64,000 bases of DNA from Microbacterium sp. BH-3-3-3. Lineage in GTDB: Bacteria > Actinomycetota > Actinomycetes > Actinomycetales > Microbacteriaceae. The position numbers and the translations under genes are program-made. The notes beneath the pieces were generated by a model. The model ran no database searches and was not told the DNA's origin. It saw only the letters and a list, made by a program, of their open reading frames with translations. Positions 15,539-24,736 of this stretch are shown piece after piece; the first letter of the stretch is position 1; every line of letters begins with the position of its first letter. The stretch spans positions 682,001-746,000 of the forward strand of contig NZ_CP017674.1 in the NCBI RefSeq assembly GCF_001792815.1, read 5' to 3'.

Positions 15539-18775
<3,237 letters not shown>

Positions 18776-19678: not shown

Positions 19679-20832
19679 GAGGAGTAGGCGCTGTTCTCGT
19701 GGACGTAATCGTGCGTCAGGTCGTTGGTGCGGATCGTGGCCTCGGCCGAGCCGGCACGGAGGTCGACGACGAGGTCGAGCGCGCGCGGAGTGAGGTCGAC
19801 GTCTTCGCGAGGGCGGTCGGGGCCACCCGCGGTGCACACGCGCACGCCGTTCATCCAGACGTCGACGTCGTACGGGTCGAACCGGGCCGAGGTCGTGCCG
19901 ATCGCCGCGAGGACCCGCCCCCAGTTGGGATCGTTGCCGAACACGGCAGCCTTGAACAGGTTGTTGCGCGCGATGGAGCGGCCCACCTCGACGGCCTCGT
20001 CCTCGGAGGCGGCCTGGGTCACCCGGATCGTGATGTCGTGACTCGCCCCCTCGGCGTCGCCCTGCAGCTGCGCGGCGAGGTCGTCGCACACCGCGGCCAG
20101 CGCCGTGGCGAACTGCTCGGCGGGTACCCGGATGCCACTGGCCCCGCTGGCGAGCAGCGTCACCTGGTCGTTGGTCGACATGCAGCCGTCGGAATCCAGA
20201 CGATCGAAGCTCACGCGCGTGGCCGCCCGCAGGGCCGCGTCGGCTTCGTCGGCGTCGAGCACGACGTCGGTGGTGACGACGACGAGCATGGTGGCGAGGC
20301 CCGGAGCCAGCATGCCGGCGCCCTTCGCCATCGCGCCGATGCTCCATCCGTCGCCGACGTGCACGGCGCGCTTGGGGCGGGAGTCGGTGGTCATGATCGC
20401 CAGCGACGCGTCTTCTCCCCCGTCGGTCGAGAGAGTGGCGATACCCGTGTCGACACCGGCGAGCACCTTGGCGCGAAAGACCTCGTCGCCCGTGCCGATC
20501 AACCCGGTCGAGCAGACCACCACGTCTCCGGCGCCGACACCCAGCAGCTCGGCGGCACGCTCGGCGGTCTGGTGCGTCGTCTGGAACCCGAATGCGCCCG
20601 TGAAGCAGTTGGCCCCGCCCGAGTTGAGCACGACGGCCTCGATGACGCCGTCCTTCACGACCTGCTCCGACCAGAGGATCGGATTGGCCTTGGCACGGTT
20701 CGACGTGAAGACGGCCGCACCGACCTTGAGAGGGCCGCGGTTCACGACGACGGCGACATCGCGCGCACCGGTCGACTTCAGGCCTACAGCGACTCCGGCT
20801 GCCTCGAATCCTGCGGGGACGGTCACGCTCAC
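19675..20832 (-). CDS. argJ: Bifunctional glutamate N-acetyltransferase / N-acetylglutamate synthase
   Basis: A 385-residue self-cleaving enzyme that transfers acetyl from N-acetylornithine to glutamate, making the pathway cyclic. The autoprocessing site [14 protein letters not shown] is intact. Cleavage is expected between A180 and T181, and T181 becomes the nucleophile of the beta chain. The start is GTG at 20832, inside the argC stop codon (GTGA). Whether it also uses acetyl-CoA cannot be judged from sequence. Confidence 0.95.
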
Positions 20833-21878
20833 GGGGCGACTCCGTTCAAGGGGAGGGCGGTGGTCTCGGCGAGGCCCAGCGCGATGTTCATGGATTGCAC
20901 GGCGGCACCGGCGGTGCCCTTGACGAGGTTGTCGACGGCGGCGACCACGACCACGCGGTTCGCCGCGCGGTCGATGGCGAGACCGAGCGAGGCGACATTG
21001 GCGCCGAGCACGTCGGCGGTGCGCGGGAACACACCCTCGGGAAGCAACTCGACGAAGGGCTCGTCGGCGTAGGCCTGCTCCCACGCGGCGCGGATCTCGG
21101 CATCCGAGACCCCCTCACGGATCGGGGCCGACGACGTCGCGAGGATCCCGCGCGCCATGGGAACCAGGACGGGGGTGAACGAGATGCGGATGCCAGCGGC
21201 GGGCGTCCCCGCGGCGGCCAGCGCCTGGCGGATCTCGGGGATGTGACGATGTGTGCCGCCGACGGCATATGGGTTGGCGGTCCCGAGGATCTCGCTGGCG
21301 AGGAGGTTCGTCTTGGCCGACTTTCCTGCCCCGCTCGGGCCCACCGCGAGCACCGAGACGATGTCGCCGGGCTCGATGACCCCCGCCGCGATCCCCGGCG
21401 CGAGCGAGAGGGCGACGGTCGAGGCGTTGCATCCCGGAGCGGCGATACGTGCGGCGCCCCGCAGCAGCTCACGCTGCTTGCGACCCCCGACGGGCAGCTC
21501 GGGAACACCGTAGGCCCACGGCTCGGGGTGCGCTCCGCCATAGAACTCCGCCCAGTCGTCCGGCGAGGTCAGGCGGTGGTCGGCACCCGCGTCGATGACG
21601 AGCGGGGTGTCGGCCAGCGCGTCGGTGTACTGCGCGGACTGGCCGTGTGGGAGGGCGAGGAAGACGACGTCGTGACCGGCGAGCACCTCGGGTGTCGTCG
21701 GCTTCAGTTCGAGATGCGCGAGAGAGCGCAGGTGCGGCTGATGGGCGACGAGGGGCTGGCCAGCACTGGAGTGCGCCGTGACCGTTCGCACCTGGACGTC
21801 GGGATGATCGGCCAGCAGACGGAGGATCTCGCCGCCCGCGTAGCCGGAAGCGCCGGAAACGGCGACCGAGAGGGTCAT
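20829..21878 (-). CDS. argC: N-acetyl-gamma-glutamyl-phosphate reductase
   Basis: A 349-residue NADPH-dependent reductase, the first gene of the arginine operon. The Rossmann motif GASGYAGGE is at 9-17, the active-site cysteine C150 is in PGCNAST, and [13 protein letters not shown] [10 protein letters not shown] is conserved. The ATG at 21878 has an AAGGTGG ribosome-binding site. The 5' region carries an Arg-rich leader ORF and its promoter, so expression is likely set by arginine supply through the leader. Confidence 0.97.
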
Positions 21879-21960
21879 GTGTCCACCTTAGGAGTCGGGG
21901 CTGGTGCTGAACTCAGCGATAACCGGGGCGGCGACGCCCGCATGCCCGACCGTCGGCGGG
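21879..21960 (-). promoter_or_regulatory. argC leader: candidate attenuator region
   Basis: The 82 nt between the leader ORF stop and argC can form competing stems: CCCGC/GCGGG (21937-21941 with 21956-21960) and CGACG/CGTCG (21932-21936 with 21951-21955). An upstream hairpin (21970-21984, 6-bp stem) covers the last two Arg codons of the leader. The argC ribosome-binding segment GGTGGACAC (21879-21887) is complementary at 8 of 9 positions to GTGTGCACC inside the leader (22033-22041). There is no T-run, so the switch could be Rho-dependent or translational. Mechanism is inferred. Confidence 0.5.
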
Positions 21961-22056
21961 TTACGAGGTCGCCGAAACTCGGCGTGCGACCCGACGTCGA
22001 CGCACGGCAACGGGGCTCACGGAGAGCTCCTCGGTGCACACGACGGTCGACGACAT
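21961..22056 (-). CDS. Arginine-rich leader peptide upstream of argC
   Basis: A 31-codon ORF on the minus strand beginning MSSTVVC. It contains VRRRRVARRV, that is CGT CGA CGT CGG GTC GCA CGC CGA, or six Arg codons within eight, followed by VSATS and TAA at 21961-21963. It lies alone between pheT and argC and ends 82 nt before argC. Its ATG at 22056 is exactly 6 nt from a TAACCT -10 box with a TTGCCC -35 box, so it is predicted to be translated from a leaderless mRNA. The composition and position match amino-acid attenuator leader peptides: ribosome stalling at Arg codons would control the operon. Peptide synthesis is not proven. Confidence 0.7.
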   Translation of the reverse strand: MSSTVVCTEELSVSPVAVRRRRVARRVSATS

Positions 22057-22062
22057 GAGGCG

Positions 22063-22092
22063 AGGTTATCCGCCGCGCCCGGGCGAGGGCAA
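22063..22092 (-). promoter_or_regulatory. Promoter of the arg leader and arg operon
   Basis: On the minus strand: -35 TTGCCC (22087-22092), 18-bp spacer, -10 TAACCT (22063-22068), then 6 nt to the leader ATG at 22056. It is the best sigma-A-type promoter I can see in the 347-bp argC-pheT gap. No ARG box resembling the ArgR consensus was recognised. The rest of the gap up to pheT (22093-22225) shows nothing else. Confidence 0.65.
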
Positions 22093-22225
22093 ATCAGCGA
22101 CCGTGTGCACGCCCGCGTGAGAGCAGCGAATGACCGGCCGCGCGAAGGCGTCGCGTTCGCGGAGCCCGCCGAGACGACGAAGCGCCGCGCGGCGTGAGCC
22201 GGCGGCGCTCCGTTCGATCAGGGCG

Positions 22226-24736
22226 TCAGTCGCGAATGGCCGCGCCGAAGCGCTCGGCGGCCACCGCGACGCCGGCGAGCTTGGCCTCCGTCGCCTCGGC
22301 CGCGGTCAGGGTGCGGTCGTCGGCGCGGAAGCGCAGCGCGAACGTCAGGCTCTTGGTGCCGTCGGTGAGTCCGGGGCCGCGGTAGTCGTCGACCAGACGC
22401 GCCCCCTCGAGCAGCGGGGCCCCACCCTCGATGAGCGCGGCACGCACCGACCCCGCCGACACCTCGACCGGGACCGTCAGCGAGACGTCCTGCGTCGCCG
22501 CCGGGAAGCCCGAGAGCGATGCCGCGACCACGCGCGCCTGCGCCAGCTCGAGCATCGCGTCGAGGTCGAGTTCGGCCACGAGCACCCGGCCCGGCAGGTC
22601 GGCGTCGGCCGAGACGGCGGGCAGCAGCTCGCCGACGTAGCCGATGTCCTGCCCCGCGGCCAGGACGCGTGCGGTGCGTCCGGGGTGCAGGGCTGCGCGC
22701 TGAGCCTGCACGAGCTCGATGTCGAGGCCCGCCGCCGAGGCCAGCACGCGCACGGCGTCGACCGCATCGGCCAGGTCGGCCGCGACGGCCGGCTGCCCGG
22801 ACTGCTTGGCGACGGCGTTCCCGGCCAGCAGCACGGCGACGTGTCGGCGCTGCGGCGGGATCGAGGCGTCCAGAGCGGTGAGGGTCGCGGCATCCGGTCG
22901 CACCGCCAGCGGCGGAACCGACGCGGTGCCGTATTGCACGCCCGGCTTCGGCAGGAAGACGGTGCCCATCTCGAACAGCGCGAGATCGACGATGCCGCGC
23001 GAGACGTTGCGGTGTGCGACCTGCAGCAGGGCGGGCACGAGCGAACGACGCAGGTACGGCGCAAGACCGTCGAGCGGATTGGCGAGCTTCACGCTCGGCA
23101 GCGCGTCGCCCGACGGCGAGCCGTGCAGGGCGTTCTGCTCGTCGGTGGTGAACGGGAACGACGGCGTCTCAACGAAACCGGCCGCGGCCAGCGCGTTCGT
23201 CACCCGACGACGACCCTGCTGCGCGGCGGTGAGACCCCGGCCCGAGGGAGGCGTCGGCAGCACCGAGGGGATGCGGTGGTATCCCTCGATGCGGGCGACC
23301 TCTTCGGCCAGCGTCCACTTGTCGGTGAGGTCGTGGCGCCACGAGGGGGCGACCACCGACCAGCCCGACTCGCGCTCTTCGACGGTGCATCCGATGAGCC
23401 GGAGCGCCGAGACGATCTCGTCGTCGGTGTACTCGACGCCGATCAAGCCCGAGACGAACCCGGCCGGCAGGGTGATCGCGTCGCGACGGTACGCCGACGA
23501 GAGCGAACCGCCGAGCTCGGTGTCGAGCGTGCCGCCGGCGAGCTCGACCATCAGCGACGCGACGCGCTCGGCGGCGACGTACGGCACGAGCGGGTCGACG
23601 CCGCGCTCGAAACGGCGCGACGCTTCGGAGGGCAGCTTGTGCCGCCGCGCGGTACGCGCGATCGAGACCTGGTCGAACGTCGCCGCCTCGATCAGCACGT
23701 TGCGGGTGGCGTCGCTCATCTCGGTGGGGCCACCGCCCATGACACCGGCCAGGCCGATGGGGCCCGACTCGTCGGTGATGAGCAGATCTTCGGCGTTCAG
23801 GGTGCGCACCTGGCCGTCGAGGGTCTCGAGCTTCTCGCCCGGCGCGGCGCGGCGCACCGTGATGCCGCCCTGCAGGCGGTCGAGGTCGTAGCCGTGGATC
23901 GGCTGGCCGAGCTCGAGCATGACGTAGTTCGTGATGTCGACCAGCACGCCCAGCGACCGGATACCGGCGAGCGAAAGCCGCGTGATCATCCACGGCGGAG
24001 TCGGACGCGAGGGGTCGACGTCGCGCACGATGCGCGCCACGAACTCGGTGGCGCCGTGACGACCTCGGATCGGCGCCTGATCGTCGACGGTGATCGCGAA
24101 GCCCGAGGGCGTGCGTGAGACGGCCTCGTCGTGACCGGCACCGGGGTCGCGGAAGTCGGCACCCGTGGCGTGCGAATACTCGCGGGCGACCCCGCGCAGC
24201 GACAGGGCGTAGCCGCGGTCGGGGGTGACGTTGATCTCGACCGCGAGGTCGTCGAGCCCCAGCAGCGCGATGGCATCCGTTCCCACGGGCGCGTCGATGC
24301 CGAGGTCGATCAGACGCAGGATGCCGGAGTGCTCGCTGCCGAGCCCCAGCTCTTTCGCCGAGGCGATCATGCCGTCGGAGACGTGGCCGTAGGTCTTGCG
24401 CGCGGCGATGGGGAACGGGCCGGGCAGCACCGAACCGGGCAGGGTCACCACGACCTTGTCGCCCTCGAAGAAGTTGCCGGCACCGCAGACGACGCCGCGC
24501 ACTCCCCCGTTGTCGGCACCGACGTCGACCTGGCACCAGCGGATGGTCTTGCCGTTGGACTGCGGTTCGGCGGTGAACTCCTTCACCTCGCCGACGACGA
24601 TCGGGCCCGACAGTTCGAAGCGGTGCACGTCTTCTTCTTCGAATCCGACCGAGACCAACTCCGCGAGGACGTCTTCGGGCGTGGCCGTCACGGGTACGTC
24701 GACGTACTCGCGCAACCAGGAGAGCGGGACGCGCAT
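22226..24736 (-). CDS. pheT: Phenylalanine--tRNA ligase beta subunit
   Basis: An 836-residue beta chain of the (alpha-beta)2 PheRS. Domains in order: N-terminal MRVPLSWLREYVDVP, an EMAP-like tRNA-binding domain (about 40-155), B3/B4 editing domain, B5 DNA-binding-like domain, catalytic-like core, and C-terminal ferredoxin-like anticodon-binding domain (FPAATQDVSLTVPVEV near 735-750). All are full length. The ATG at 24736 overlaps the pheS stop (ATGA-type), so the two subunits are translated in a coupled way. Confidence 0.97.
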   Translation of the reverse strand: MRVPLSWLREYVDVPVTATPEDVLAELVSVGFEEEDVHRFELSGPIVVGEVKEFTAEPQSNGKTIRWCQVDVGADNGGVRGVVCGAGNFFEGDKVVVTLPGSVLPGPFPIAARKTYGHVSDGMIASAKELGLGSEHSGILRLIDLGIDAPVGTDAIALLGLDDLAVEINVTPDRGYALSLRGVAREYSHATGADFRDPGAGHDEAVSRTPSGFAITVDDQAPIRGRHGATEFVARIVRDVDPSRPTPPWMITRLSLAGIRSLGVLVDITNYVMLELGQPIHGYDLDRLQGGITVRRAAPGEKLETLDGQVRTLNAEDLLITDESGPIGLAGVMGGGPTEMSDATRNVLIEAATFDQVSIARTARRHKLPSEASRRFERGVDPLVPYVAAERVASLMVELAGGTLDTELGGSLSSAYRRDAITLPAGFVSGLIGVEYTDDEIVSALRLIGCTVEERESGWSVVAPSWRHDLTDKWTLAEEVARIEGYHRIPSVLPTPPSGRGLTAAQQGRRRVTNALAAAGFVETPSFPFTTDEQNALHGSPSGDALPSVKLANPLDGLAPYLRRSLVPALLQVAHRNVSRGIVDLALFEMGTVFLPKPGVQYGTASVPPLAVRPDAATLTALDASIPPQRRHVAVLLAGNAVAKQSGQPAVAADLADAVDAVRVLASAAGLDIELVQAQRAALHPGRTARVLAAGQDIGYVGELLPAVSADADLPGRVLVAELDLDAMLELAQARVVAASLSGFPAATQDVSLTVPVEVSAGSVRAALIEGGAPLLEGARLVDDYRGPGLTDGTKSLTFALRFRADDRTLTAAEATEAKLAGVAVAAERFGAAIRD

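Follow-up and report, generated by a model that had tools for sequence, protein, structure and literature searches.

An arginine-coding leader upstream of argC is very probably a leaderless arginine attenuator in much of the Microbacteriaceae

The window, which is the whole stretch of 64,000 nucleotides analysed here, belongs to a host genome of one contig (3.5 Mb) and carries, on the minus strand, a short leader ORF between pheT and argC. The genes 3' of argC match the ArgJ, amino acid kinase, class-III aminotransferase, and ornithine carbamoyltransferase families of Pfam, and the gene names used here (argC, J, B, D, F, argH, and pheT) are consistent with their Pfam families. The closest named argC relatives, within the best 80 of 505 matches, are from Microbacterium, including M. 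proteolyticum and M. testaceum, with 89–92% identity. The earlier note had described a 31-codon minus-strand ORF with six Arg codons within eight, whose ATG follows TAACCT after exactly 6 nt, with TTGCCC 18 nt further upstream, and which ends 82 nt from argC; all of these features are present as described (argC ATG at 21878). The features of the locus, in the direction of transcription, are as follows.

22087..22092, minus strand: −35 element TTGCCC of the leader promoter, 18 nt upstream of TAACCT, read from the sequence
22063..22068, minus strand: −10 element TAACCT, marking a putative leaderless start exactly 6 nt 5' of the leader ATG
21961..22056, minus strand: leader ORF of 31 codons plus stop (ATG at 22056, TAA at 21963–21961), read from the sequence; peptide MSSTVVCTEELSVSPVAVRRRRVARRVSATS
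21979..22002, minus strand: element A, CGT CGA CGT CGG GTC GCA CGC CGA, with Arg codons 19–22 and 25–26
21965..21973, minus strand: element B, GGCGACCTC (family form GGCGACGCC), from the family comparison
21945..21950, minus strand: GTCGGG, 5' arm of the competing hairpin when B is masked, from the minimum-energy fold of this one sequence; its register is not conserved
21929..21938, minus strand: element C, GGCGTCGCCG, the partner of B (21974–21968 with 21935–21929) in the predicted argC-on structure
21894..21899, minus strand: CCCGAC, 3' arm of the same B-masked hairpin as GTCGGG, inside stretch D and ending 4 nt 5' of AAGG, from the minimum-energy fold
21890..21928, minus strand: stretch D, from element C to the Shine-Dalgarno sequence, which pairs with the 5' part of C family-wide
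21886..21889, minus strand: Shine-Dalgarno sequence (SD) AAGG of argC, inside TAAGGT, 11 nt 5' of the argC ATG
20829..21878, minus strand: argC, gene 1 of the argCJBDF operon, with the Pfam semialdehyde dehydrogenase domains

The leader promoter was absent from a strict sigma-70 consensus scan (0 found); T at −24 from the start of the −10 box carried 1.42 bits over 56 leaders. A search of Rfam with window positions 20000–24000 gave four matches, with E values up to 5, and 0 of them lay inside 21800–22100, so that none is in the leader. Seven leader peptides gave no match in NCBIfam.

Bacterial arginine biosynthesis is commonly regarded as the domain of the repressor ArgR, which performs at the ARG box the same regulatory task on arg genes. 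The leader differs from that system in its genomic context, since the Arg_repressor family (PF01316) was found neither in the host genome nor in any of the 199 sampled Microbacteriaceae genomes. By contrast, PF01316 matched 224 of the 230 genomes sampled from the rest of the order. The order sample comprised 248 genomes, 224 of which matched; 18 belong to the Microbacteriaceae, with no match in any of the 18, and four non-matching genomes were placed outside this family from the sort order. The ArgR C-terminal family (PF02863) was detected in 0 of 150 Microbacteriaceae genomes, the host included. In several other families, ArgR adjoins argG (for example, in G200, G203, G206, and G207). In the host genome, the best argG match lies more than 1 Mb from argC, and no ArgR gene was seen between argF and argH. 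That interval holds, at 15539–16891 of the window, a gene with HGSNAT_cat and DUF418 matches, and neither ArgR nor argG was found there.

argC was present in 190 of the 199 family genomes. Upstream regions were taken for 130 of these, the most similar first, and 129 were usable (L079 was too short). An Arg-run leader ORF was found in 80 upstream regions, five were relics lacking the leader, and 44 had neither. The 80 leaders consist of 76 that were scored by an Arg run with a −10 box at leaderless distance, and four that were recognised by eye (L055, L058, L062, and L071). These four were excluded from the test set, as was L084, a divergent scored leader with an insertion; the remaining 75 leaders, 66 of which form alignment A1, were reduced to 56 representatives by shared 8-mers. 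The 44 upstream regions without a leader are also, as far as the family was sampled, without ArgR, and 35 of them carry TANNNT 5–8 nt 5' of argC, which suggests that argC may itself be leaderless there. In the five relics (L077, L092, L096, L098, and L123), the leader ORF is absent, the 3' end of pheT abuts elements C and D, and the last pheT codons (e.g. CGATTCGGGGCGAC) occupy the position of B; a TANNNT box precedes argC in three of the five. These genomes possibly reflect decay of the leader or, alternatively, a leader 3' end that derived from pheT.

The earlier note had proposed conservation of the Arg run in close relatives as a check. This was examined at 80 named loci, mostly from Microbacterium, which are close relatives because they are the best 80 of 505 confirmed argC matches. 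At least four Arg codons within a run of 10 codons, behind a −10 box, were found in 79 of these 80 loci (best 80 of 505), and the run was kept while much of the remaining peptide varied; the 79 Arg runs comprise 19 codon strings, and the 11 closest relatives share nearly all one string. In a frame test, element B was located by its motif (B and the 11 nt before it), with the promoter, the start, and the further-upstream Arg content unused, and each frame was asked for a start codon with TANNNT 5–8 nt upstream. Within the best 80 of 505 matches, 79 loci could be anchored on the RNA motif (L264 could not), and the start codon with TANNNT was found in the frame of B in 79/79 and in each of the other two frames in 0/79, with a spacing of 6 nt in 78 loci and 7 nt in one.

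The best 8-codon window contained at least five Arg codons in 36 of the 56 leader ORFs, compared with 8/112 for the two other forward frames, and the Arg fraction was 0.283 in the leader frame versus 0.138 and 0.181 in the others. One reverse-complement frame reached an Arg fraction of 0.304. Since CG-rich repeats are read as Arg on both strands, the Arg count alone is no proof; it is the start, the frame, the promoter spacing, and the synonymous variation that place the leader ORF beyond chance. Arg was found at slots −29, −26, and −23 relative to B in 38, 38, and 36 of the 56 representatives, respectively, where the third-position entropy (1.76, 1.91, and 1.44 bits) exceeded the first-position entropy (1.00, 0.81, and 1.03 bits). 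The main-run Arg codons thus show synonymous variation, with the third base the freest of the three. These comparisons indicate that Arg is under selection in the leader.

The Arg slot at −8 before B is CGA in 55/56 representatives, with the third base also fixed, and the RNA motif itself therefore seems to be constrained at this slot. CGA accounts for 160 of 505 Arg codons in the Microbacterium leaders, as compared with 5/224 across eight of the window's arg and phe genes; this excess is due partly to the fixed −8 slot and partly to the second codon of the run. An attractive reading is that CGA may serve as a slow codon within the sensor. In 52/56 leaders, four or more Arg codons lie at least 13 nt upstream of B, and a ribosome stalled at least 13 nt before B should leave B free.

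Element B starts at the G of the TAG stop in 30/56 representatives and begins 10–25 nt before the stop in 26/56. Judging from the size of the ribosome footprint, a ribosome at the leader stop should cover B in both layouts. Element C follows 32–53 nt downstream of B, and AAGG occupies the Shine-Dalgarno place in 52/56 representatives, with the motif starting 11 nt before the argC ATG in 42/56.

Pairing was assessed by partner swapping, in which a segment and its own partner were compared with the partners of other genomes. As shared ancestry is not fully removed in this test, pairings of the same sequences that came out null serve as the control. A clear gain was seen for B:C (z = −4.9) and C5:D (z = −3.7), A:D was marginal (z = −1.9), and six other pairings were null (z from −0.4 to +0.6). 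The repeat and control swap tests, as well as the region folds, used 51 of the 56 representatives (those with D longer than 50 nt were dropped). The short C5:D pairing was again partner-specific (z = −4.3, 0/3000 permutations). The control segments paired with D were null, with z values of +0.9 for the stretch intervening between B and C, −0.4 for the leader start, and 0.0 for upstream DNA, and the argC codons were less complementary to D than by swapping (z = +2.6). The whole B-to-C stretch together with C5 was weakly partner-specific for D (z = −1.3).

The B:C segments formed 89.1% standard pairs, versus at most 68.5% when slid against each other. The covariation score and the number of pair types for B:C were reached by 0/500 shuffles, and the number of doubly changed pairs (four) by 43/500. 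Four of the nine pairs are invariant, the cores of B and C are near invariant, and two of the pairs fail to form in 17 and 19 of 48 sequences. With the full alignment, RNAalifold returned four pairs only, all within the B:C core and without double changes, which is why the partner-swap and pair-count tests were used. The fold of the B–C region was more stable than its shuffles (mean z = −3.5; below −1 in 50/51 representatives), whereas that of the C–D region had a mean z of −1.06, with 27/51 below −1 and fewer than four C:D pairs in the minimum-energy fold of 9/51. When B was masked, the mean number of C:D pairs rose from 2.2 to 4.8, increasing in 35/56 representatives and decreasing in two. 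These comparisons support two mutually exclusive predicted hairpins downstream of the Arg run, B:C and C:D, which share C. Attenuation logic follows, since C can serve only one of them at a time and B would be covered by a ribosome at the stop.

The earlier note had placed competing stems both over and after the Arg codons. Those after the run are borne out by the partner-specific B:C and C:D pairings, whereas pairing of the Arg codons with B or C was rejected (A:B, z = −0.4; A:C, z = +0.6). The complementarity of a leader segment to the argC ribosome-binding region (8 of 9), which the note had also put forward, did not hold up as a family feature, since it was not partner-specific over the 56 leaders (z = −1.35). 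The duplex between the leader and the SD of the window is strong (−17.9 kcal/mol), and the other 55 SDs never pair better with the window leader; this candidate was set aside as strong in the window alone and unconserved over the 56 leaders.

In the window's own RNA, B:C (21974–21968 with 21935–21929) forms when folding ends at the SD or when the whole leader is folded, and the stability of the whole-leader fold is unremarkable (z = −0.91). When the fold extends from B into argC, other pairs prevail over B:C and B prefers argC codons. Pairing of B with the argC start, which dominates this one window fold, was null across the family. With B masked, GTCGGG (21950–21945) pairs with CCCGAC (21899–21894).

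A covariance model of the RNA element was built from 48 of the 56 sequences (L003, L021, L056, L069, L075, L107, L111, and L127 were dropped). Searches over many genomes used stricter filters, by which weak matches are lost, and the matches include the relics that lack the leader. At E ≤ 1e-4, the model matched 118 of 249 family genomes among the matches listed, and 15 of the 248 genomes of the order sample, all 15 of them Microbacteriaceae; outside this family, the order sample had no match at that threshold (best E, 6.3e-4). In the host genome, the model matches a single place, which is the argC leader. Although it includes just two Microbacterium sequences (L001 and L002), the model matched 80/80 named loci (best 80 of 505) at E ≤ 0.01, and E was 1.3e-4 or lower for 79 of these loci.

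The central reading of the earlier note was a leaderless Arg leader that controls argC by attenuation where ArgR is lacking. It gains support from the conserved Arg run, the absence of ArgR from the sampled family genomes, and the competing hairpins, and we hold with good confidence that the leaderless Arg-coding leader is an arginine attenuator of argC. The leaderless mRNA would begin at the leader AUG. When arginine is plentiful, the ribosome would pass the Arg codons, stop at or just after B, and cover it; C would then be free to pair with D, giving a GC-rich hairpin beside the argC SD, and argC expression would be low. When arginine is short, the ribosome would presumably stall before it reaches B, at the first Arg cluster, so that B:C could pair, the C:D hairpin would be prevented, and argC would be read. 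We infer both that the leader responds to arginine and the direction of this response from the arrangement of the sequence elements.

In our estimate, the output of the switch would probably be the initiation of translation at argC; termination, either without a U-tract or by Rho, is a lesser possibility, and any other output is unlikely. Control of argC translation is favoured over intrinsic termination because no U-tract follows the hairpin, with a mean of 1.8 T in 8 nt over 42 representatives. An intrinsic terminator was rejected on this ground together with the count of terminator-like sites, which was 0 in window positions 21800–22240. Translation control is also favoured because the hairpin is close to the SD and AAGG accompanies the element: among the 42 representatives with a C:D hairpin, its end lies a median of 5 nt before the SD, and 0–8 nt before it in 30 of them, and AAGG precedes argC in 74/85 element-bearing genomes versus 6/44 others. 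Sequestration of the SD by C:D was discarded, as the mean openness of the SD was 0.44 in both states, being freer in the stalled state in 10/56 representatives and less free in 13/56. Since the SD is not paired more in either state, the block on argC would be steric, and this is the weak point of the model.

The same leader and switch might instead act by stopping transcription at C:D, an alternative that we regard as possible, if doubtful. The equal openness of the SD in both states would fit it, and classical amino-acid attenuators work in this way; an intrinsic terminator of this kind would have to do without the missing U-tract, and the position of the D arm close to the SD (median, 5 nt; at most 8 nt in 30/42), together with an SD that tracks the element, argues against it. 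For Rho, which would act on a D that is C-rich by consensus, there is a precedent in the suggestion made for terminator-less mycobacterial cysteine leaders in the accessible part of one survey (PMC1262725), but Rho loading should be favoured when D is single-stranded, that is, at low arginine, which is the wrong direction.

It is improbable that leader and argC are uncoupled, with argC transcribed from a leaderless promoter of its own (TAAGGT, 6–7 nt 5' of its ATG) and a leader transcript of little consequence. T0 and T5 of TAAGGT are conserved, and the hexamer could be a −10 box. TANNNT lies 5–8 nt before argC in 65/85 element-bearing and 35/44 other genomes, but 20/85 element-bearing genomes are without it, no −35 signal was seen upstream (this signal is weak also in element-free genomes), and AAGG follows the element (74/85 versus 6/44). 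An independent argC promoter would, moreover, leave B:C and C:D unexplained. We give still less credence to the view that the conserved RNA is a binding site for a protein or metabolite and the Arg run a by-product of a CG-rich motif. The near-invariant cores of B and C, the equally Arg-rich reverse-complement frame (0.304), and the fixed third base of the CGA 8 nt before B (55/56) would agree with such a site, whereas the synonymous variation of the main-run Arg codons in a promoter-anchored frame and the lack of an Rfam match in the leader disagree with it. The leaderless arginine attenuator thus stays our preferred account of the argC leader, and it is very probably present in much of the Microbacteriaceae.

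Among known systems, those closest in kind, as far as the accessible parts of the sources describe them, are the leaderless polycysteine short ORFs of mycobacteria, for which cysteine-responsive attenuation has been reported (PMC9031893) and, for cysteine genes, translation attenuation named (PMC13236596). Both they and the argC leader, which is putatively leaderless as well, are actinobacterial short ORFs with a run of codons for the sensed residue before an operon; the run is cysteine there and arginine here, where the repressor ArgR was not found. Elements B, C, and D are described for the argC leader, and the comparison with the polycysteine ORFs rests on the ORF features given in those accessible parts. 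In the Salmonella speF leader, as its accessible account has it, two consecutive Arg codons of orf34 sense arginine (PMC6386406), much as is proposed for the argC leader ORF. That system differs in its target (putrescine synthesis), its means (Rho, RBS unfolding, and RNase G), its own SD, and its organism (PMC6386406). The rbfL uORF of S. aureus, according to the accessible part of its account, likewise uses Arg codons to sense a shortage of arginine, and its effect is on translation initiation, the output proposed for argC (PMC13009471); there, however, stalling covers the RBS and represses the biofilm regulator rbf, and a competing-hairpin switch is not mentioned in that part (PMC13009471).

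The classical attenuators (trp, ilv, and his) share with the argC leader a run of cognate codons, mutually exclusive hairpins, and a stop at which a terminating ribosome should cover the second arm, but the argC leader lacks a U-tract terminator and a supported pairing of Arg codons with B. T-boxes, which also control arginine genes at the RNA level, sense uncharged tRNA themselves and involve no leader peptide; the argC leader differs from them, and from known riboswitches, in having no Rfam match. Arginine T-boxes are named for other species in the accessible part of a 2005 survey of Actinobacteria, and the same part reports that no conserved RNA structure was found upstream of arginine operons (PMC1262725). 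In the literature searched, which lay mostly outside subscription journals, we found no description of an arginine leader upstream of genes for arginine biosynthesis.

We lean towards a broader interpretation, at somewhat better than even odds, in which ArgR was lost in an ancestor of the Microbacteriaceae and the feedback was rebuilt in much of the family with a leaderless Arg leader; this leader, with an otherwise rare codon, CGA, in its run, would toggle a hairpin next to the SD of argC. The leader would then be the first leader-peptide attenuator of arginine biosynthesis known in bacteria, with a DNA-binding repressor replaced family-wide by a translation-coupled RNA. A family with no ArgR found and with a conserved Arg leader in many of its genomes offers a testable answer to how feedback survives the loss of a repressor; it would add arginine to cysteine as a residue with leaderless leader peptides, and would supply actinobacterial work with a natural, compact sensor of arginine.

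Second matches of the RNA model were inspected in three genomes. In L167, which also has an argC leader, it is weak (L167:1652–1791, minus strand; 33.8 bits), lies before an ABC transporter permease (PF00528), and is probably due to chance; the other two are in L168 and L169. In the argG upstream regions of 17 same-genus genomes, the host included, no promoter-anchored Arg leader appeared among the top candidates within 220 nt. By eye, argG itself seems to be leaderless in most of these regions (L178–L186, L189, L190, and L192–L197), its ATG being preceded at about 6 nt by TAGACT or TAGAAT.
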